64,000 nucleotides of DNA from Planctomycetota bacterium (lineage in GTDB: Bacteria; Planctomycetota; UBA1135), in NCBI GenBank assembly GCA_027623295.1, contig JAQBXR010000004.1, positions 62,001 through 126,000 of the forward strand, in the 5' to 3' direction. Numbering within the stretch: position 1 is the stretch's first letter; each line of letters begins with the position of its first letter. The notes under the pieces were generated by a model. It was not told the DNA's origin. It ran no database searches and was given only the letters and a program-made list of their open reading frames with translations. Below are positions 3,875-63,008 of the stretch, in pieces. Position numbers and translations under genes: made by a program.

Positions 3875-3924
3875 GGTCGTGGATGGCTAGGGCTCGTGGC
3901 CACACCCCTGTAGGATAGTGGGCG

Positions 3925-5049
3925 ATGGTGCGGGCAAAGGATACGAAAAAATGCGCAGTTGTGCTGCTGTCTGGCGGGCTAGATTCGGCCACGGTCACGG
4001 CTTGGCTACAGCGCGAGGGTTTCGACGTGATCGGGCTGACGGTCGACTATGGCCAAAAGCATCGTGCGGAGCTGCTGGCGGCGACTGCGGTGGCGTTAGC
4101 GCTAGGGGTGAAGGAGCATTTAATCATGCGGCTGGATCTGCGGGCGATGGGCGGCTCAGCTCTGACTTCCGATTTGGAGGTCCCGAAAGCGGGCGATGCC
4201 TTGGATCAGGTCGCCGCGGATATTCCGGTGACGTATGTGCCGGCGCGCAACACCATTTTTCTGTCGCTTGCTTTGGGTTTAGCGGAAGCGCGCGGTGCGC
4301 ATGATCTTGGTATTGGAGTGAATGCGCTGGACTATTCCGGGTATCCGGACTGCCGCCCGGAGTTCGTTGAGAAGTTTGGCGAGCTTGCCAACTTGGCCAC
4401 GCGCGAAGGTGTGGAGGGACGTCCAATGGTGCTGCACTCACCGCTGCTCAATTTGTCTAAGGTTGAGATTCTGCGTTTGGCACATGAGTTAGAGGTGCCG
4501 GTCCATCAAACTTTGTCCTGCTATGATCCGGAAGCCAGTAGCGCGCCGTGCAAATTATGCGATGCCTGCCGCCTGCGTATTCAGGCGGAAAAGGAATATG
4601 CGAAGGAAGCGGTTTTGTATACGCAGGTGCATCACGAACGTACTTGGCATGTGCGGCACAGGAACTTACGTCAAGGGCAGCCTTTCGAAACCGTGGATTA
4701 TGGGGCGACCGATCGCTTGGAGACTACCGTGCATCTGGTTTTGACCATGGGTGAAAAAGAGATCGGATGCGCCACCATCATGAAGGAAGAGCGCGACGGC
4801 GGTTTCGGTTATCGCATTCGCGGCATGGCGGTGGACGAGGCCTATCGCGGTTTAGGCTGCGGACGACTTTTGATGGAGGGCTGTCAATCCCTAGCGCACG
4901 AACTCAAAACAGGCCTATGGTGCAATGCGCGCAACAACGCTATCCCGTCGTATGTGGCTTGCGGTTTTAGACAAGTGGGGGAGGAATTTGATATCCCCAA
5001 CATCGGCCCGCACTATGTTTTGGAATGGTTGCCCCACGCTAGGGATTGA
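3925..5049 (+). CDS. queC: QueC 7-cyano-7-deazaguanine synthase fused to a C-terminal GNAT acetyltransferase domain
   Basis: 374 residues, against about 220-230 for ordinary QueC. Residues 1-230 are a complete QueC: PP-loop SGGLDSA (16-22), the ARNT/IFLSLA stretch (107-116), and zinc cysteines C199, C209, C212 and C215. QueC converts 7-carboxy-7-deazaguanine to preQ0 with ATP and ammonia, for queuosine in tRNA or 7-deazaguanine in DNA. Residues 265-370 are a GNAT fold: beta strand 'EIGCATIMKEE', acetyl-CoA loop RGLGCGR (308-314), and 'NNAIPSYVACGFRQVGEEF', the usual GNAT C-terminal pattern. There is no stop, ribosome site or start between the parts, so this is one polypeptide. No queD, queE or folE is near. 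TAGGAT at 3911-3916 sits eight bases before the ATG. The substrate of the acetyltransferase half is unknown. Confidence 0.92.
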   Translation: MVRAKDTKKCAVVLLSGGLDSATVTAWLQREGFDVIGLTVDYGQKHRAELLAATAVALALGVKEHLIMRLDLRAMGGSALTSDLEVPKAGDALDQVAADIPVTYVPARNTIFLSLALGLAEARGAHDLGIGVNALDYSGYPDCRPEFVEKFGELANLATREGVEGRPMVLHSPLLNLSKVEILRLAHELEVPVHQTLSCYDPEASSAPCKLCDACRLRIQAEKEYAKEAVLYTQVHHERTWHVRHRNLRQGQPFETVDYGATDRLETTVHLVLTMGEKEIGCATIMKEERDGGFGYRIRGMAVDEAYRGLGCGRLLMEGCQSLAHELKTGLWCNARNNAIPSYVACGFRQVGEEFDIPNIGPHYVLEWLPHARD

Positions 5050-5151: not shown

Positions 5152-5180
5152 GGAGTTTAAATCGCGCTGGTTTAAACTCC
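5152..5180. promoter_or_regulatory. 10-bp inverted repeat overlapping the mazG promoter
   Basis: ggagtttaaa (5152-5161) and tttaaactcc (5171-5180) form a perfect 10-base inverted repeat with a 9-base spacer, ending five bases before the mazG ATG. The right arm contains TAAACT, a candidate -10 element. The size and position fit a dimeric repressor operator; a hairpin in the RNA is the alternative. Confidence 0.45.
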
Positions 5181-5184
5181 CCGT

Positions 5185-5997
5185 ATGCCGCCCGTCACCA
5201 AACCGGTCCCCCAAGAAATCCTCGAAGCTTTCACCAAGCTTTATCAGGTCGTCGATGAACTGCGCTCTCCAGGCGGCTGCCCGTGGGATATCAAGCAGAC
5301 GGTCGAATCGCTGGCTCCGCATGTAGTGGAGGAGTGTCACGAGATGGCCGATGCCGTCGCACGAAAGAGCGCGCCTGACACATGTGAGGAGCTCGGTGAC
5401 CTACTCATGGGAGTCATGATGGTGGCGCGCGTGGCCGAGGAGGATCGTGGTTTCGGCATGGCTGAGGTGGCCGATGGCATTCGCACCAAATTGATCCGTC
5501 GTCATCCGCATGTTTATGGCGAGGTGGAAGTCGAAGGCAGTGACGAGGTCTTGCAGAACTGGGAGGCGATTAAGAAACAGGAGAAGATTGATAAGGGCGA
5601 GGATGAGTCCGCCCTTTCTGGAGTGCCACGTTCGCTTCCGGCTTTACTCCGCGCCTACCGAGTGGGGGCTAAGGCTTCCAACGCTGGTTTTGATTGGCCA
5701 GATCTTGCCGGTCCGAGCGCCAAGGTGGAGGAAGAGTGGCAAGAATTCCAAGAAGCGGTGGCCAGCGGAAATAAGGAACGCGCTGCGGAGGAGCTGGGCG
5801 ATTTGCTCTTTGCCGTGGTCAATGTCGCGCGGAAGATGAAAATTGAGCCAGAGCTTGCGCTTCGAGGCACAATTGAGCGCTTTTCTTTACGCTTTGCCTA
5901 TGTCGAACGAAACCTCGACAAAGACTTGGCCGACGCCACTCTCGAAGAAATGGATGTTCTTTGGGAGAAGGCAAAAAGCCTTGCTGACGGGGCTTGA
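5185..5997 (+). CDS. mazG: MazG nucleoside triphosphate pyrophosphohydrolase
   Basis: 270 residues, full length for two-domain MazG. The N-terminal domain has the hallmark 'CPWDIKQTVESLAPHVVEE' with the metal-binding E-E-x-x-E and a downstream ELGDLL. The C-terminal domain repeats the pattern (VEEEWQEFQEAV, then EELGDLLFAVVNVARK). The family hydrolyses (d)NTPs to monophosphates and pyrophosphate and is used for nucleotide-pool cleaning; in some bacteria it lowers ppGpp. A 10-base inverted repeat overlaps its presumed -10, so expression may be controlled. The ATG lies only six bases after TAAACT and no Shine-Dalgarno is seen. The stop codon overlaps the -35 of the following tRNA gene. Confidence 0.95.
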   Translation: MPPVTKPVPQEILEAFTKLYQVVDELRSPGGCPWDIKQTVESLAPHVVEECHEMADAVARKSAPDTCEELGDLLMGVMMVARVAEEDRGFGMAEVADGIRTKLIRRHPHVYGEVEVEGSDEVLQNWEAIKKQEKIDKGEDESALSGVPRSLPALLRAYRVGAKASNAGFDWPDLAGPSAKVEEEWQEFQEAVASGNKERAAEELGDLLFAVVNVARKMKIEPELALRGTIERFSLRFAYVERNLDKDLADATLEEMDVLWEKAKSLADGA

Positions 5998-8196: not shown

Positions 8197-8206
8197 ATTC
8201 TAGAAT
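8197..8206. promoter_or_regulatory. Palindromic double -10 element between thiI and tRNA-Val
   Basis: ATTCTAGAAT is a perfect palindrome, so TAGAAT can be read on both strands. On the + strand it ends 10 bases before tRNA-Val; on the - strand it lies about 37 bases before thiI. It could serve two divergent promoters. No matching -35 is evident. Confidence 0.5.
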
Positions 8207-16808: not shown

Positions 16809-16917
16809 GGATTGAAACGGGGTTGACAAGATTAGGGTGGCCCGAAGCTTTGGTCTAGACTTTGGAAGGGCATTCCGGCGTTGGTAAGCGAGCCGGATAG
16901 CAGTCATAATCCCCTCC

Positions 16918-29031: not shown

Positions 29032-30371
29032 GAATCATTCCGTCGTGCTGCACGACGTTCTGCGACCTTTGCCAAAGCAAGGTCACTTGCTTTCTTATCG
29101 CGCTTTATCAATAGAAATAGGAGGATTCCAATTACAATTGCGATCGCCAAAAACATGATGATTATTTGCCCTGCAAAGGGCGGCGTGATTTTTTCCTGAG
29201 TAGCGGCATCGATCACTACGAAGACTGGAGTGCGCAAGCGATTCCCTTCGGTGTCTACATAGGCCCAAAGCATGAGGAAATAGCCGTGATAAATGATGGG
29301 GCCCTTGCTTTCGCCAAAATCGAAAACTCCCGGGGCTTTTAGGTGGGTTAAGTTCGTGCCAACCAAGTCATTGCGAATCCAAGCAGAGGAAATATTTTTC
29401 TCCCTTAGTGGGTTTTCACCAAGCTGGTTTTTGCTGGCTTCACGCACCATGCCACCAAGTTCAAACATGCGGCCGCGGAAAATGGCTGGATTTTGGACTA
29501 ATGCCTTCAGCGTCTCTTCGTCCAGGACAATCGAGTCTTCGATAGCTTTCGCGTGGAGTTCTTCATCGTGCCCGACGGTACGCGCTACATTGAGCAAATG
29601 CCAAAGGTAAGGATCGCGGTCCAGCTTTGTCGGATTGTTATCCGTTCCGATTGGGTGGTCGCGGACATCGATCAGAAAATCCGGAGAAGGCTCGGTAATC
29701 GGAAGAGCTGGTGCAAAGGAGGGCTTGAGACCTCGTCCAACAAAGAGCGGAGTTAATAGAGATTCTTCTCCAAACGTTTCTTCGTAATATTTGAAGAAGT
29801 AACCATCGGCTAGGGAAAAGTTTTCGGAGAGTTCAATTGAGTCAGACCCCGAGATGTCAACGAAGCGAAACTTGTAACCCTCAGCAGTTTCGAGAATCCA
29901 CCAAATTTCTTTCTCCGCACCGGCTCCGATTTCACGCCGGTCCAAAATTTTCCCGCGCATTCGGAATGGTTTCCCTCGAGCTTCGTTGGACCTTTCAAGG
30001 CCACCCTCAAATGGGAATTCGGGTTCACCCAGGTAATAGAGCCAGGATCCGACTAATGGTTTTGCGGCATTCTTGAAGCTTTCAAAGGCTTCGCTCTCGA
30101 TAACATTGCACGCAGCCGACGATGAGTCGTCGATTAGCTTTAAGATTTCAGGATCAATCTTTTGTAGCAAATACCCATAGTCCGTTTCTTGAGTCCAAGT
30201 TTTTTCCGGTGCTTCCGCTGATTTTCCCACGCGGTCTTGGACCACAAAGATGATGGCAAAACAAAGCGCAATACCAACCGCTGACACGATTAACTTGCGT
30301 TTTTCTTTATGTTTAGCCTCAGCGAGCTTGCGCTCCATCAGCCGACGTTTTTCTTCTCGGTCCAGGGTCAT
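29028..30371 (-). CDS. Two-helix membrane protein between aroB and a glutamine amidotransferase, function unknown
   Basis: 447 residues from the ATG at 30371, whose first base is shared with the upstream stop (TAATG). A longer reading to 30458 exists but would overlap that gene. After a basic coiled start (MTLDREEKRRLMERKLAEAK) there is a helix at about 26-44 (KLIVSAVGIALCFAIIFVV), a large domain of about 340 residues on the far side of the membrane, a second helix near the C-terminus (IIIMFLAIAIVIGILLFLL), and a basic tail rich in R and A. The topology is a periplasmic loop held by two helices. I recognise no motif. Co-translation with aroB and the amidotransferase is clear but does not define a role. 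Confidence 0.8.
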   Translation of the reverse strand: MTLDREEKRRLMERKLAEAKHKEKRKLIVSAVGIALCFAIIFVVQDRVGKSAEAPEKTWTQETDYGYLLQKIDPEILKLIDDSSSAACNVIESEAFESFKNAAKPLVGSWLYYLGEPEFPFEGGLERSNEARGKPFRMRGKILDRREIGAGAEKEIWWILETAEGYKFRFVDISGSDSIELSENFSLADGYFFKYYEETFGEESLLTPLFVGRGLKPSFAPALPITEPSPDFLIDVRDHPIGTDNNPTKLDRDPYLWHLLNVARTVGHDEELHAKAIEDSIVLDEETLKALVQNPAIFRGRMFELGGMVREASKNQLGENPLREKNISSAWIRNDLVGTNLTHLKAPGVFDFGESKGPIIYHGYFLMLWAYVDTEGNRLRTPVFVVIDAATQEKITPPFAGQIIIMFLAIAIVIGILLFLLIKRDKKASDLALAKVAERRAARRNDS

Positions 30372-31084
30372 TACTTTTTGTAGTTGCGTGCCGCATCTGC
30401 GAAACCGGAAAACATGGCACGGGTAGCTTGGGAGTCCGGAGCGCGCTCTGGATGCCATTGCACACCCAACGCGAAGGTCTTTCCAGGCAGTTCGACGGCC
30501 TCTAGGGTGCCATCGTCCGCCCAGGCAGAGGCCTTAAGGATAGCGCCAGGGTCAATTAGCGCCTGATGATGGAAACTCGGCACCAAAAAATCGTTGGTGC
30601 CGACCAGTTGTGCGAGCAGGGAGCCAGCACACGGTTTGACGGCGTGCTCAAACCCTTTGGTGTGCCCGATGAAGTTCTCCATATGCTGCTCAAAAGGCGC
30701 ATCGTGGAGCAAACCCATCACTTGCATGCCGAAGCACACGCCGAACAAGGGCATGTCGCGCTGCAGGGTTCCGCGGACTAATTCCAAATTCATGGACTGC
30801 TGCTCCAGCGGTACCGGCTTACATTCGGCAGTGGGTGCTGGTCCGCCGTAAGGGCGCAGATCGAGGTCGTCGCCGCCAGTCATTAAAACGCCGTCGAGTC
30901 GATCCAGAATCGCATCGACATCGGCAGGCGGGGCGTCGCCAGGAATCAACACGGGAACCATGCCGGCCGCACGCAATACGGGCATGTAGCTGGTGAACAA
31001 CTGAAAGCGTCGTTGTCCTTCATACCAAGGGGCATCGAGCAGTTCGACGGTGACCCCAATCAGTGGGTGCGGTGAGTCCATCAT
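30371..31084 (-). CDS. Class I glutamine amidotransferase-like protein, gamma-glutamyl-GABA hydrolase (C26) family
   Basis: 237 residues from the ATG at 31082-31084; the open frame reaches 31327, but that extension lies over the divergent exchanger gene. The nucleophile is in LFGVCFGMQVMGLLHD, the catalytic histidine in GVQWHPERAP, and a 'GGDDLDLRPYGG' loop is present as in PuuD/peptidase C26 enzymes. Members hydrolyse gamma-glutamyl amides, as in polyamine breakdown. It is the first gene of a three-gene operon with an unknown membrane protein and aroB. Only 22 bases separate its start from the divergent exchanger gene. Confidence 0.85.
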   Translation of the reverse strand: MMDSPHPLIGVTVELLDAPWYEGQRRFQLFTSYMPVLRAAGMVPVLIPGDAPPADVDAILDRLDGVLMTGGDDLDLRPYGGPAPTAECKPVPLEQQSMNLELVRGTLQRDMPLFGVCFGMQVMGLLHDAPFEQHMENFIGHTKGFEHAVKPCAGSLLAQLVGTNDFLVPSFHHQALIDPGAILKASAWADDGTLEAVELPGKTFALGVQWHPERAPDSQATRAMFSGFADAARNYKK

Positions 31085-31106
31085 GGACCCTATACTAAGC
31101 GCCCGC

Positions 31107-32054
31107 ATGGCGTACCTGTACCTACTCCTCGGCCTTGCTGGCCTCTTGATTGGATCCGACCTCGCAGTACGCGGTTCGATTTCCTTGGCGCATCGCTGGG
31201 GATGGCCAGGATGGGCCACTGGCCTGTTGCTGCTCGCGGTTGGAACCTCGCTTCCGGAGCTATTCATCAGCATTGCGAGCGCCCCCGAGCACCCAGGATT
31301 GGCGCTTGGCAACATCTTTGGCTCCAACGCTTTTAACGTGGGCGTGGTGCTTGGCGCAGCTTTGTTGTTGAAGGGGAGTGCGCGCTTAGATGTTCACGCG
31401 GTGCGCCTGCCAACCCTCCTGCCTCTGGTGTTTGGAAGCCTGGCGGCGTTTTTGCTTATCGGCGCACCGCAAGAGATTTACTTTTTGAGCTTCCTGTTCT
31501 TGGTGGCTTATGGAGTCATGATCCGCCTGAGTATCGCTTTGCGCGGCGATGATTTACGCGAAGATGAGGAGGCTGCCCCAACCAAGGTATTCAACTTTCC
31601 GCTAGCCTTGGCGCTGACGGCGGCTGGCTTTCTGCTGTTGGCCTTTGCATCTACCTGGTTCCTCAATGGTGCATTAGACATCGCGAACCAATTGGGTTGG
31701 AAGGAAGGCTTTGCCGGTTTCATTATCACTGCGATTGGAACTTCGGCTCCAGAGTTGTTCACTTCGGTTCGAGCGCTGAAACTTGGCCATGCTGGCGCCG
31801 TCTTCGGTAATGTGGTGGGCTCCAACGCATTCAACCTTCTGGTCGCAGGCGGATTTATCGGTTTGCTGGCCGACGTGCAGGCACCACAAGAGGGCCTCTC
31901 CGCGCTAGTCATGGTCAACATGATTGCGACTTTGGTGTTGATCATCCCCGGGATTCTCACTAACAAAAATCGCGAAATCTCGATTAAGGCTTATCAAGGC
32001 ATGGGAGTGCTGCTGATTGGCGGCTATCTTGCCGGTGCCTTTTGGGTTTCCTAA
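31107..32054 (+). CDS. Na+/Ca2+ exchanger of the CaCA family
   Basis: 315 residues with about ten helices in two inverted halves. The alpha repeats are both present: 'VGTSLPELFISIASA' with 'GNIFGSNAFNVGVVLG', and 'IGTSAPELFTSVRA' with 'GNVVGSNAFNLL'. These bind the cations. I chose the ATG at 31107 (MAYLYLLLGLAGLLIGSD) because upstream codons lie inside the divergent gene and look noncoding. TATACT at 31091-31096 is ten bases before this ATG. The gene is followed by lpxD after 17 bases. Confidence 0.92.
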   Translation: MAYLYLLLGLAGLLIGSDLAVRGSISLAHRWGWPGWATGLLLLAVGTSLPELFISIASAPEHPGLALGNIFGSNAFNVGVVLGAALLLKGSARLDVHAVRLPTLLPLVFGSLAAFLLIGAPQEIYFLSFLFLVAYGVMIRLSIALRGDDLREDEEAAPTKVFNFPLALALTAAGFLLLAFASTWFLNGALDIANQLGWKEGFAGFIITAIGTSAPELFTSVRALKLGHAGAVFGNVVGSNAFNLLVAGGFIGLLADVQAPQEGLSALVMVNMIATLVLIIPGILTNKNREISIKAYQGMGVLLIGGYLAGAFWVS

Positions 32055-32071
32055 GCTGTTAAACTGCGCAC

Positions 32072-33825: not shown

Positions 33826-33849
33826 TGGAACTTCCTAGAAGCTTACCTC

Positions 33850-35065
33850 ATGAATCGGCTCGAAACACTGTGGACTAAACTCTGCGCACGCACCGACTAT
33901 GAAACCTGTAGTCGTCCGCGGGCCGCGCGTTTCCGCCTAGACACCATTCAGGGCCTCGTAGAACGCCTTGAGAACGTGCATTTGAGCATCCCAGTGGTCC
34001 ATTTGGCCGGGTCTAAAGGCAAAGGAACGGTGTGTAATTATTTGGCCAAGGGATTGTCAGCTTCGGGGCTGAAGGTCGGGCTGTACACCTCGCCGCACCT
34101 GAGTGATTGGCGCGAGCGGATTCAAGTCAACGGCGGCTTTTTAGACGAGGATGCCTTGGCTAATGGCATTGAAAAGGTTCTTCAGACCTCTGTCGGCGAC
34201 GAGACCTTATTTGCTCACGTCAACCGCCATGGTGTGCTTTCGAAGCGCCGCGTGTGACATCATGATTCTCGAAACCGGGCTCGGCGGACGTTCCGATTCC
34301 ACCAATGTGGTGCAGCCACTTGCCGCTGCGGTTTCCTCGATTGAGTTAGAGCACGTCGATGTCCTCGGCACTGACCTTGCCACCATCGCAGGGGAAAAGG
34401 CTGGCATTTTCAAATCGGGTTCTTTGCTTTTTGCCGGCGCCAGCCTGCGCGAAGAAGCGTTACGTGTACTTCAATCCACCGCCGATGGACTTCACGAATC
34501 ACTGCTCATCGCGCCAACTTCGGTGCCAGGTTTCACCCATCCACAGGCGCACATGCAGGCGAACTTTGCGCTCGCGGTGACCATCTTGCGCCATTTACCG
34601 CGGCCGTTTTCCGCAGCCGCCGACATCCTCCGCTCACTGCCAAGCTCTGCCCTGCAGTTACCCGGTCGCTTGGAGCAGCGGCAACTCCCCGACGGCCGTT
34701 TGGTTCTTTTTGATGTCGCGCATTCCACCGATTCGTTGACCTCGATAATCCAAACCTTTCGCGCAACTTATCCAGATGCTAAACGCGGCATTGTGCTTGC
34801 CCTGCGCGATGATAAAGACGCAGCACAATTAGCCACACAACTGAGCGCAAATCTCGGCCTTCGCCCGTCCTCGGAAAGCTGGTGGACTGCACCGGCCGGC
34901 GACCATCCGCGTTCGGCCAACCCGGATACAATCGCTGGTTCCTTTGAGGCCCAAGCCCTGCAACAGCCGGGTTTTCCAAAAGGCCCCGAAGTGCTCCTCA
35001 TTACTGGCTCGACTTATTTGGTCGGCGCCCTTCGTCCGCAAACTACGCCGCTTAACCTTCATTAA
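33850..35065 (+). pseudogene. folC: Folylpolyglutamate/dihydrofolate synthase split by a one-base frameshift
   Basis: Two overlapping frames together give a full Mur-ligase-type FolC of about 404 residues. The first part (33850 to about 34215) has the N-terminus and P-loop HLAGSKGKGTVCNYLAKGL and YTSPHLSDWRERI. It then runs into a stop at 34255. The second part, in the next frame (from about 34218), resumes with 'TSTAMVCFRSAACDIMILE', 'TGLGGRSDSTNVV', EHVDVLG, 'IAGEKAGIFK' and the C-terminal 'VLFDVAHSTDSLTSII' and ends just before ispH. Removing one base near 34212-34222 restores the frame. FolC adds glutamate to folates and is normally essential, so an assembly error or +1 frameshifting is more likely than true loss. 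The stop overlaps the ispH ATG by one base. Confidence 0.85.
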
Positions 35066-37409: not shown

Positions 37410-37451
37410 ATTCTATCTCAGTTCTCCGCGGTGGAGTGGGGTAAGTAGAAT
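37410..37451. promoter_or_regulatory. Divergent pair of TAGAAT -10 elements between rsgA and a TrmH-type gene
   Basis: TAGAAT occurs on the - strand at 37410-37415 (eight bases from the rsgA ATG) and on the + strand at 37446-37451 (six bases from the methyltransferase ATG). The 56-base gap leaves no room for normal leaders, so both mRNAs should begin at or next to the start codon. No TTGACA-like -35 is seen for either. Confidence 0.5.
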
Positions 37452-47497: not shown

Positions 47498-47558
47498 AGC
47501 AGAGTCGAAAGTCAGATTCCCGTGATTGGAGGAGGTTGTTAGAATCTCCTCCGAATCC

Positions 47559-61295: not shown

Positions 61296-62900
61296 TTAGG
61301 GAGGGGGAAGTGGAATCCCAATGCCCTGCAGGCGCAAGGCCTCTAGGCCTGGATGCTCCGGCATCAAATGGGTAATCCGGAACAGAGAGTTCGCTCTCAC
61401 CGGACCACCCTTGGGGCCTTCTGCTTGCTCTTCGGAAACTAAATCGCATTCCCATTCCCATACGATCTTGCCGGCAGGGTCGACCTCGAACAGCAGTCCT
61501 GGTTCGCCGGAGCAGATCAGCGTGTTGCCATTCGGTAAGCGTTGCACCCCACTAATGAAGCTAGAGAAAAAATCTGCCTTCTCCGGTGCCGTGTAAGTCC
61601 AGGAAGTTTCAGCCGGGCCGAAGCTGCCATCTGCATCACGCAGGTAGGTGCCAGCCTCGTTTCTGACTGGCCACCATTCTTCAATGCTGGAGTAATCACC
61701 ACCTGGACGATCTTCTCCATTGTTGAAGACCATCAGGCCGCCGGCGCCGAGTTGTCCGTCTTCAATCCATTGAACGTCATGCTGCCCGATGAGCACGCGG
61801 TCTTCCAAAGTCCCCATGCCGTATGCCGCAGGATTTCCCCAGCGATAGAGCAAATCCCCGCCTTTGCCGCGACGTCCTCCACTACGGGATGCCGCTTCTG
61901 CGGTGCTGGTGGAGTGGTCGATGATCCAAATCTCATCGAAGGTGCGCACGCTGATGGCAACTTGATCGAGCGTGGCGTTGTAATCGATGGCGTTGGTGTG
62001 CATCCAATCGGCATCGCGAAACTTCTTGCGACGAAGCTCCTTGGCAGTGGGAGGGCCATCGTTTTGGGAGTCCGGCGCGGCATCATGAGGAGGTGGCCCG
62101 GCGGAATCCGGAGGGATGGGTGCGCCGTCATCGCCACCGGCGTAACCGGCGTAACCCATGGCTGCGAGTTGATCCATCAAAGCATCGAGCTCCTCTTCCG
62201 ACTTCAACTCGGGATCGCGGTCGCCGTTGATGTCGATGCGCTCGGGGTGTTCGGCGACCACGCCATAGTGCGGTGCTTCCGGATCGAAATCTTGAATCAA
62301 GTGATCCCAGGAATGCCACTGCCAAACAATCTCGGCGCCATCGGTTCCGAAGGGACGGATTTCATAAAGCGCATCGGGCCAGAACTCTTCACCGCGCAAT
62401 AATTCGGGATCGCGTCCGTTGGCTAAGGCTTCTTCGGCACTGCGTTTCTCCCAACCGATTAACAAGAGGTTGCCGTTGGGCATGGGCTCGATGTCGTGAT
62501 GATGATGACGCTGCCCATCTGCCATGCGGTATTCCCACAGTACGGTGCCATCGGCCGCGATCTCTTGAATGCCTCCGCCAATGCCGCCGCCGGAAAAAGC
62601 GACGTCTTCCTCAATGCGCATGCACCGGTAAAGCGTGCCACGTTCGGTCAAGTAAACCGAGTTGCCCGGCTCCCACTCGGTTTCCCATTGATGCAGGGTC
62701 GTGCCTTCGCGGTCGACAAGGAAGACCTTCTTGCTTTTCAGCGGCGTGATGAGGAGGTAGCCATCTTGCGCCGTGGCGGAGCCCAAACGGTCACGCGCGG
62801 GCGCCGGAATGGGGGTTGGGTCATGCGGGTCAGGCCCGGAATGGGTGCATGCGGCTAGAAGGAGTGGGAGCAGACACGCGTGTTTGGCAAACGGGAGCAT
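61296..62900 (-). CDS. Arylsulfotransferase-like lipoprotein (beta-propeller)
   Basis: 534 residues. Lipoprotein signal MLPFAKHACLLPLLLAAC with lipobox LAAC. The body is a beta-propeller with the sequence style of arylsulfate sulfotransferases (ASST): 'DGYLLITPLKSKKVFLVDRE', 'GQRHHHHDIEPMPNGNLLLI' and later 'WIEDGQLGAGGLMVFNNGED' and 'VQRLPNGNTLICSGEPGLLF', repeated H-D and N-G-N strand patterns. ASST moves sulfate between phenols, using a histidine; here the HHHHD stretch provides candidates. An acidic, proline-rich insert (about 225-290, with calcium-loop-like 'DINGDRDPELKSEEELDALM') is unusual. It may be an enzyme or only a propeller of similar fold. Confidence 0.78.
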   Translation of the reverse strand: MLPFAKHACLLPLLLAACTHSGPDPHDPTPIPAPARDRLGSATAQDGYLLITPLKSKKVFLVDREGTTLHQWETEWEPGNSVYLTERGTLYRCMRIEEDVAFSGGGIGGGIQEIAADGTVLWEYRMADGQRHHHHDIEPMPNGNLLLIGWEKRSAEEALANGRDPELLRGEEFWPDALYEIRPFGTDGAEIVWQWHSWDHLIQDFDPEAPHYGVVAEHPERIDINGDRDPELKSEEELDALMDQLAAMGYAGYAGGDDGAPIPPDSAGPPPHDAAPDSQNDGPPTAKELRRKKFRDADWMHTNAIDYNATLDQVAISVRTFDEIWIIDHSTSTAEAASRSGGRRGKGGDLLYRWGNPAAYGMGTLEDRVLIGQHDVQWIEDGQLGAGGLMVFNNGEDRPGGDYSSIEEWWPVRNEAGTYLRDADGSFGPAETSWTYTAPEKADFFSSFISGVQRLPNGNTLICSGEPGLLFEVDPAGKIVWEWECDLVSEEQAEGPKGGPVRANSLFRITHLMPEHPGLEALRLQGIGIPLPPP

Positions 62901-63008
62901 GCCGGATTGTAAAGGCTAGCTACGGAAAGCTGCGAAGTTCCCATAAGCACAGTGGCCGCCAGGTCCGTGAGGGAGCCGCTTGAGACGATGCTCCAGGTAC
63001 TTTGGGGA

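Follow-up and report, generated by a model that had tools for sequence, protein, structure and literature searches.

Putative sigma-70-type -10 boxes immediately upstream of start codons point to leaderless mRNAs in a family of Planctomycetota

Hexamers upstream of start codons in the window

Does a -10-like hexamer lying directly before the ATG mark genes that are transcribed into leaderless mRNAs? The question is raised by a 64,000-nucleotide stretch of Planctomycetota DNA (the window; G000:C9:62001-126000, from G000, a MAG of 2.45 Mb). An earlier note on the window had listed eight genes with such a hexamer, and when we checked the window sequence all eight were found at the claimed spacings. 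The features considered here are as follows.

3911..3916, + strand: TAGGAT, hexamer of queC, spacer 8 to the ATG at 3925
3925..5049, + strand: queC gene (TIGR00364)
5173..5178, + strand: TAAACT, putative -10 hexamer of mazG, spacer 6
5185..5997, + strand: mazG gene (family match)
8197..8206, both strands: palindrome ATTCTAGAAT between thiI (- strand) and tRNA-Val (+ strand), with TAGAAT on each strand
16905..16910, + strand: CATAAT, hexamer of murJ, spacer 7
31091..31096, + strand: TATACT, hexamer of the Na+/Ca2+ exchanger gene (31107-32054, + strand), spacer 10
32060..32065, + strand: TAAACT, putative -10 hexamer of lpxD, spacer 6
33836..33841, + strand: TAGAAG, hexamer of folC, spacer 8
37410..37415, - strand: TAGAAT, putative -10 hexamer of rsgA, spacer 8
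37446..37451, + strand: TAGAAT, putative -10 hexamer of the SpoU methyltransferase gene, spacer 6
62906..62911, - strand: TACAAT before an arylsulfotransferase-like gene (61296-62900, - strand), spacer 5

The gene names were consistent with NCBIfam and Pfam matches, those of SpoU, folC and the exchanger (the last in NCBIfam) falling below curated cut-offs. Near relatives of queC were found in the Planctomycetota MAGs NORP40 (85% identity) and Arabian9_MAG_16 (74%). The rsgA and SpoU genes are divergent, with a gap of 56 bp. Only mazG, lpxD and SpoU have the 6-base spacer that proved to be modal in the genome; in the other five listed genes, a transcript begun 7 bases past the box would have a leader of 1-4 bases. 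Two of the eight boxes (CATAAT of murJ and TAGAAG of folC) do not fit TANNNT and were left out of the TANNNT counts below. The folC gene (33850-35065, + strand) is split across two overlapping frames, a 135-aa ORF matching positions 1-84 of TIGR01499 and an ORF at 34151-35065 matching positions 98-397, which could reflect a frameshift, an assembly error or a broken gene.

TAGAAT had also been reported before four further genes. This was correct for carB (spacer 20), mqnD (spacer 13) and tRNA-Val (10 bases before the tRNA), while at thiI the hexamer lies ~55 bases before the called start and on the opposite strand of the palindrome. At these distances the mRNAs of carB, mqnD and thiI would carry a leader, short or longer, instead of being leaderless, and the palindrome is possibly a bidirectional -10 element for a leadered thiI mRNA and tRNA-Val. 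At mqnD (47528-47552) we noted the order GGAGGAGG, TAGAAT, CTCCTCC, which places the hexamer in the loop of a possible hairpin just before the start. The absence of a Shine-Dalgarno (SD) sequence from the eight listed genes was confirmed with two remarks: AGGA occurs within the queC box, and an AGGAG lies one base before the SpoU ATG, probably too near to act as an SD, and went unflagged because the scan of these genes covered -15 to -5 only.

Position and sequence of the box across the genome

We called genes in 772,395 bases of G000 from codon usage only, with no input from the bases upstream, and obtained 593 genes with enough upstream sequence. Miscalled starts are certain among them; queC, for example, was called 36 bases downstream of 3925. 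As a proxy for transcript starts, genes whose upstream neighbor was divergent or >50 bp away were classed as first genes (n = 373), while those with a gap of <=25 bp to the upstream neighbor were classed as inner genes (n = 170). The first base of TANNNT fell at -12 in 43 of the 593 genes, against 5.05 per position (mean over -90 to -31), and the counts at -15, -14, -13, -11 and -10 were 12, 18, 19, 6 and 5, respectively. At -12 there were 29 hits in first genes (3.82 expected) and 9 in inner genes (0.82 expected). At -15 to -12 the hexamer was present in 61 first genes, whereas 200 dinucleotide shuffles averaged 13.4 and never exceeded 24; it was not limited to this class, as 22 of the inner genes had it too. 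A second, smaller excess was seen at -20 (13 of 593 against 5.05), five of these genes being inner ones.

To allow for miscalled starts, we scanned the first genes with any nearby ATG or GTG permitted as the start, so that one gene can be scored at several spacers. Spacers 6, 7, 8 and 9 held 63, 24, 20 and 21 of the 373 genes against a background of 10.1 (spacers 14-40, sd 4.0), and the excess amounted to ~88 genes (24%). In the whole genome, TAGAATN6ATG occurred 28 times, whereas spacers 12-20 gave 5.7 each on average (p = 1.1e-9); the backward pattern occurred twice but is not a clean control, and more weight was given to the spacer control. In textbook promoters the -10 hexamer occupies -12 to -7 relative to +1. 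A box at -12 to -7 from the start codon, as at the modal spacing, is therefore expected to start the transcript on the A of the ATG. An alternative holds that the -10 boxes are real, but that most transcripts begin a few bases ahead of the start codon and rely on another non-SD route of translation, which would make 'leaderless' too strong a word. The spacers of 7-10 in five of the eight listed genes and the enrichment at spacers 7-9 are in its favor, but spacer 6 is the mode, at 2.6 times the next spacer, and we consider this alternative unlikely, while giving it real weight.

A more trivial origin of the peak would be an artefact of start calling or of stop codons, in which the TAA or TAG of the upstream gene, or an in-frame stop before the first ATG, generates the hexamer. 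Position -12 does share the frame of the start, and counts at further positions of that frame were slightly raised among the 593 starts (12 at -15, 10 at -9 and 10 at -18). However, the out-of-frame positions -13 and -14 were raised as well, and TA[CT]NNT, which never contains a stop codon, was enriched at -12 on its own (22 of 593 against 2.28; 15 of 200 against 1.00 for divergent genes only). With divergent genes alone, TANNNT was found at -12 in 24 of 200 (2.10 expected). Among 4850 in-frame Met codons within genes, 13 had the hexamer at -12 and no peak was seen, and 200 dinucleotide shuffles of the first genes gave a mean of 3.4 and a maximum of 8 at -12, against the 29 observed. None of these controls, shuffles included, accounts for the peak, and an artefact is extremely improbable. 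A plasmid stretch of Deinococcus deserti, intended as a positive control, failed as such (2 of 34 at -12, SD-dominated); an E. coli sample gave 0 of 35.

Alignment of 97 genes on TANNNT gave the consensus TANA(A/C)T, with A at position 4 in 45% and A or C at position 5 in 84%; both preferences fall at free positions, which the TANNNT selection does not impose. The TAGAAT emphasized in the earlier note is present, but the preferred form is TANA(A/C)T and not TAGAAT alone. Its remark that matching -35 boxes are poor was borne out: TTG was found in 0-3 of the 97 genes at each spacer of 13-22, and at least four matches to TTGACA in 1-5 of the 97 at these spacers, indicating that a -35 consensus is absent. 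There was no clear extended -10 TGn in these genes (T 26% and G 39% at the two positions). The genome encodes an RpoD with regions 1.2, 2, 3 and 4. Similar hexamers were found 10-18 bases upstream of 8 of the 11 predicted tRNA genes in the sample, a count for which no background rate was computed, and by eye tRNA-Ser and tRNA-Asp have TTG-containing -35 boxes. Since tRNA genes are not translated, the box seems to act there as a promoter element.

SD sequences were distributed differently. SD tetramers were flat in first genes (5 at -12 against a background of 5.52) and peaked in inner genes (22 at -12 against 1.88), and an SD was present in 37 of 170 inner genes versus 29 of 373 first genes (p = 1.4e-5). 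Mutual exclusion of hexamer and SD was not significant in either class (Fisher p = 0.80 for first and 0.17 for inner genes), and 439 of the 593 genes had neither. The 3' end of the 16S rRNA is CCTCCTTTC, indicating that the anti-SD is intact. At L001 ~1500-1515 the 16S 3' end reads GGACCACCTCCTTTC, with a C before CACCTCC; the usual base at that place is T.

The hexamer could also be a translational signal that marks, before non-SD starts, a site which is AU-rich, unstructured or used by ribosomal protein S1. An S1-like protein is encoded (517.7 bits, below the family cut-off of 577), and Nakagawa et al. (2017, PMC5397173) could not tell leaderless mRNA from RPS1 in Planctomycetes. Against this, the signal falls at one position, dropping from 43 at -12 to 6 and 5 at the next two, the flank composition is near background, and hexamers of like kind precede tRNA genes; we judge such a signal to be very unlikely.

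To determine if the box is conserved, we compared 197 orthologue pairs, 71 of which had the same start. The hexamer was kept in 8 of 12 pairs (six genes), while the flanks had diverged, and was present in 2 of the 59 others. The TAAACT of mazG was kept in both NORP40 and Arabian9 next to a diverged upstream flank, and at queC a TANNAT was kept 8 bases before the start, as TACAAT in NORP40 and as TAGGAT in Arabian9, there before a GTG. TANNNT at -12 was also enriched in pooled samples of the genus (21 of 323 against 2.45), the family (14 of 273 against 1.75) and the order (7 of 245 against 0.53), and in ten other genomes of the phylum (8 of 226 against 1.87). Single genomes of the genus were not all clear; G001, a thin sample, had 2 hits in 29 first genes at -15 to -11 against 1.4. 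Across the phylum, TAGAATN6ATG was counted 1376 times in 79 whole genomes, with 953.9 expected from spacers 12-20. Significance at the Bonferroni limit was reached in 15 of the 79, of which 12 lie outside the order, and 19 had p > 0.3. The trait is thus patchy across Planctomycetota and not universal. The genome-wide enrichment that the earlier note had staked its proposal on is strong and sharply placed at -12; orthologues retain it, and the genus, family and order samples all show it.

From the observed position, sequence preference and conservation of the box, and from the SD difference between gene classes, we infer where transcripts start and how ribosomes bind them. The leaderless reading proposed in the earlier note is supported by the enrichment at -12 and by orthologue conservation, and we consider it very likely that sigma-70-type -10 boxes place the start of transcription on the start codon or 1-4 bases upstream of it, and that about one quarter of the putative first-of-transcript genes yield mRNAs with no leader or almost none. 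The -10 box would act largely without a conserved -35, and a ribosome recognizing the 5'-terminal AUG would begin translation. Operon-internal genes would more often use an SD site with the intact anti-SD.

Head-to-head genes around one core

The exchanger gene is head to head with a glutamine-amidotransferase-like gene, and the two candidate boxes overlap.

31085..31106, both strands: intergenic region of 22 bp between the two head-to-head genes, with one symmetric core, TATACTA
31092..31097, - strand: TAGTAT for the glutamine-amidotransferase-like gene (30371-31084, - strand), spacer 7

The core provides TATACT for the exchanger (spacer 10) and TAGTAT for the amidotransferase-like gene. Orthologues of the pair were head to head in 12 of 13 family genomes, including that of the window, and on different contigs in G008. 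The gap, extrapolated from alignments, was 22-26 bp in 10 of the 12, 35 in G009 and 61 in G006. In G012, which belongs to another genus (exchanger identity 45%), a site CAT..CCTATACTAAGCG..ATG ends at the extrapolated start codon of the exchanger. The 13 bases CCTATACTAAGCG are common to G012 and the window, with the same spacing of 10 (core letters read in both); measured to the printed CAT, the G012 gap is 23, versus 26 by extrapolation.

Among divergent pairs of G000 with gaps of 14-32 bp, called starts gave a hexamer at spacer 6-10 for both genes from one core in 4 of 7, compared with an average of 0.16 in shuffles, none of 5000 reaching 4; this class was spotted on the same data, so the test is post hoc and the numbers are small. 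At gaps >40 bp (n = 87), both hexamers were present in 4 pairs, where independence expects 4.1. In the genus and family samples, called starts at spacers 6-10 gave both boxes in 1 of 5 short-gap pairs. When alternative starts were allowed (spacers 5-10, 14-32 bp) the count was 8 of 23 in G000, 1 of 8 in the genus, 2 of 4 in the family, 0 of 5 in the order and 0 of 1 in the phylum, figures that are optimistic since the best of several starts is taken. As a rival explanation, each promoter of a short divergent pair would lie inside the opposite gene.

A whole-genome count of the head-to-head pattern was rejected as support for a shared core. CATN{5,9}TANNNTAN{5,9}ATG gave 213 sites versus 63 backward in the 13 family genomes, and 42 versus 44 in 8 other genomes of the order, but the version with an AT core gave larger numbers (509 versus 24 backward). 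The TA/AT core ratio was about equal in CAT..ATG flanks (213/509) and GTA..TAC flanks (24/63), indicating that this pattern test is no evidence for a shared core. A loose ORF-based scan for the motif was uninformative, with 10 in G000 versus 5-21 for eleven other cores. On balance, the case is evenly poised that head-to-head pairs of this family share a single symmetric -10 box from which both mRNAs arise nearly leaderless, with a whole regulatory region of ~20-26 bp whose length is kept across genera.

Comparison with known systems

A TANNNT ~12 bp upstream of the start is, in the portions of Zheng et al. (2011, PMC3160421) consulted, the mark of bacterial leaderless ('TA-led') genes; it is read there as a -10 box, and SD-led genes are tied to operon-distal position. 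Here, too, TANNNT was enriched at about -12 and first genes were without SD enrichment. The emphasis in those portions is on Actinobacteria and Deinococcus-Thermus, with Planctomycetes unmentioned. The Deinococcus-Thermus -10-motif is likewise a TANNNT adjoining the ORF with leaderless mRNA, and a -35 enhances it but is not needed, according to the sections seen of Zhong et al. (2025, PMC12340547); in our genes, too, no conserved -35 lies upstream of the box. That motif belongs to another phylum and was experimentally tested. Those sections do not mention Planctomycetes, and their Fig. S7 on common phyla may include Planctomycetota. For Planctomycetes, Nakagawa et al. (2017), in the text available, ascribe an upstream bias to leaderless mRNA and/or RPS1, from base composition only in one species and with the mechanism left open. 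Two planctomycete classes appear in an anti-SD table of PMC10783764, whose relevant passages do not call them leaderless. Besides these papers, no transcript-start map or leaderless survey of Planctomycetota was among the matches listed, in a search that covered subscription journals thinly. Our results would assign abundant leaderless expression to a family within Planctomycetota, a phylum for which leaderless mRNA and S1-type initiation could not be told apart in earlier work, and they supply a specific, testable promoter, TANA(A/C)T with spacer 6. Start codons in these MAGs could be corrected from the -10 box.

The leaderless architecture itself was already known; the shared-core divergent pairs are possibly new. 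A literature search found no paper whose title or opening abstract lines deal with both leaderless genes of bacteria and bidirectional promoters, and 'leaderless' does not occur in the excerpts consulted of the two bidirectional-promoter studies (Warman et al. 2026, PMC12825309; Middlemiss et al. 2023, PMC10268837). As described in those excerpts, one -10 core is read on both strands and the starts are most often 18 bp apart. A symmetric -10 core with a hexamer on each strand at a promoter-like distance from each gene was found in the window as well. Unlike in those promoters, the two genes here would each yield a nearly leaderless mRNA, and the entire gap between them is ~22 bp. If real, such pairs would be an unusually compact promoter arrangement, in which competition between two leaderless transcripts is directly testable.
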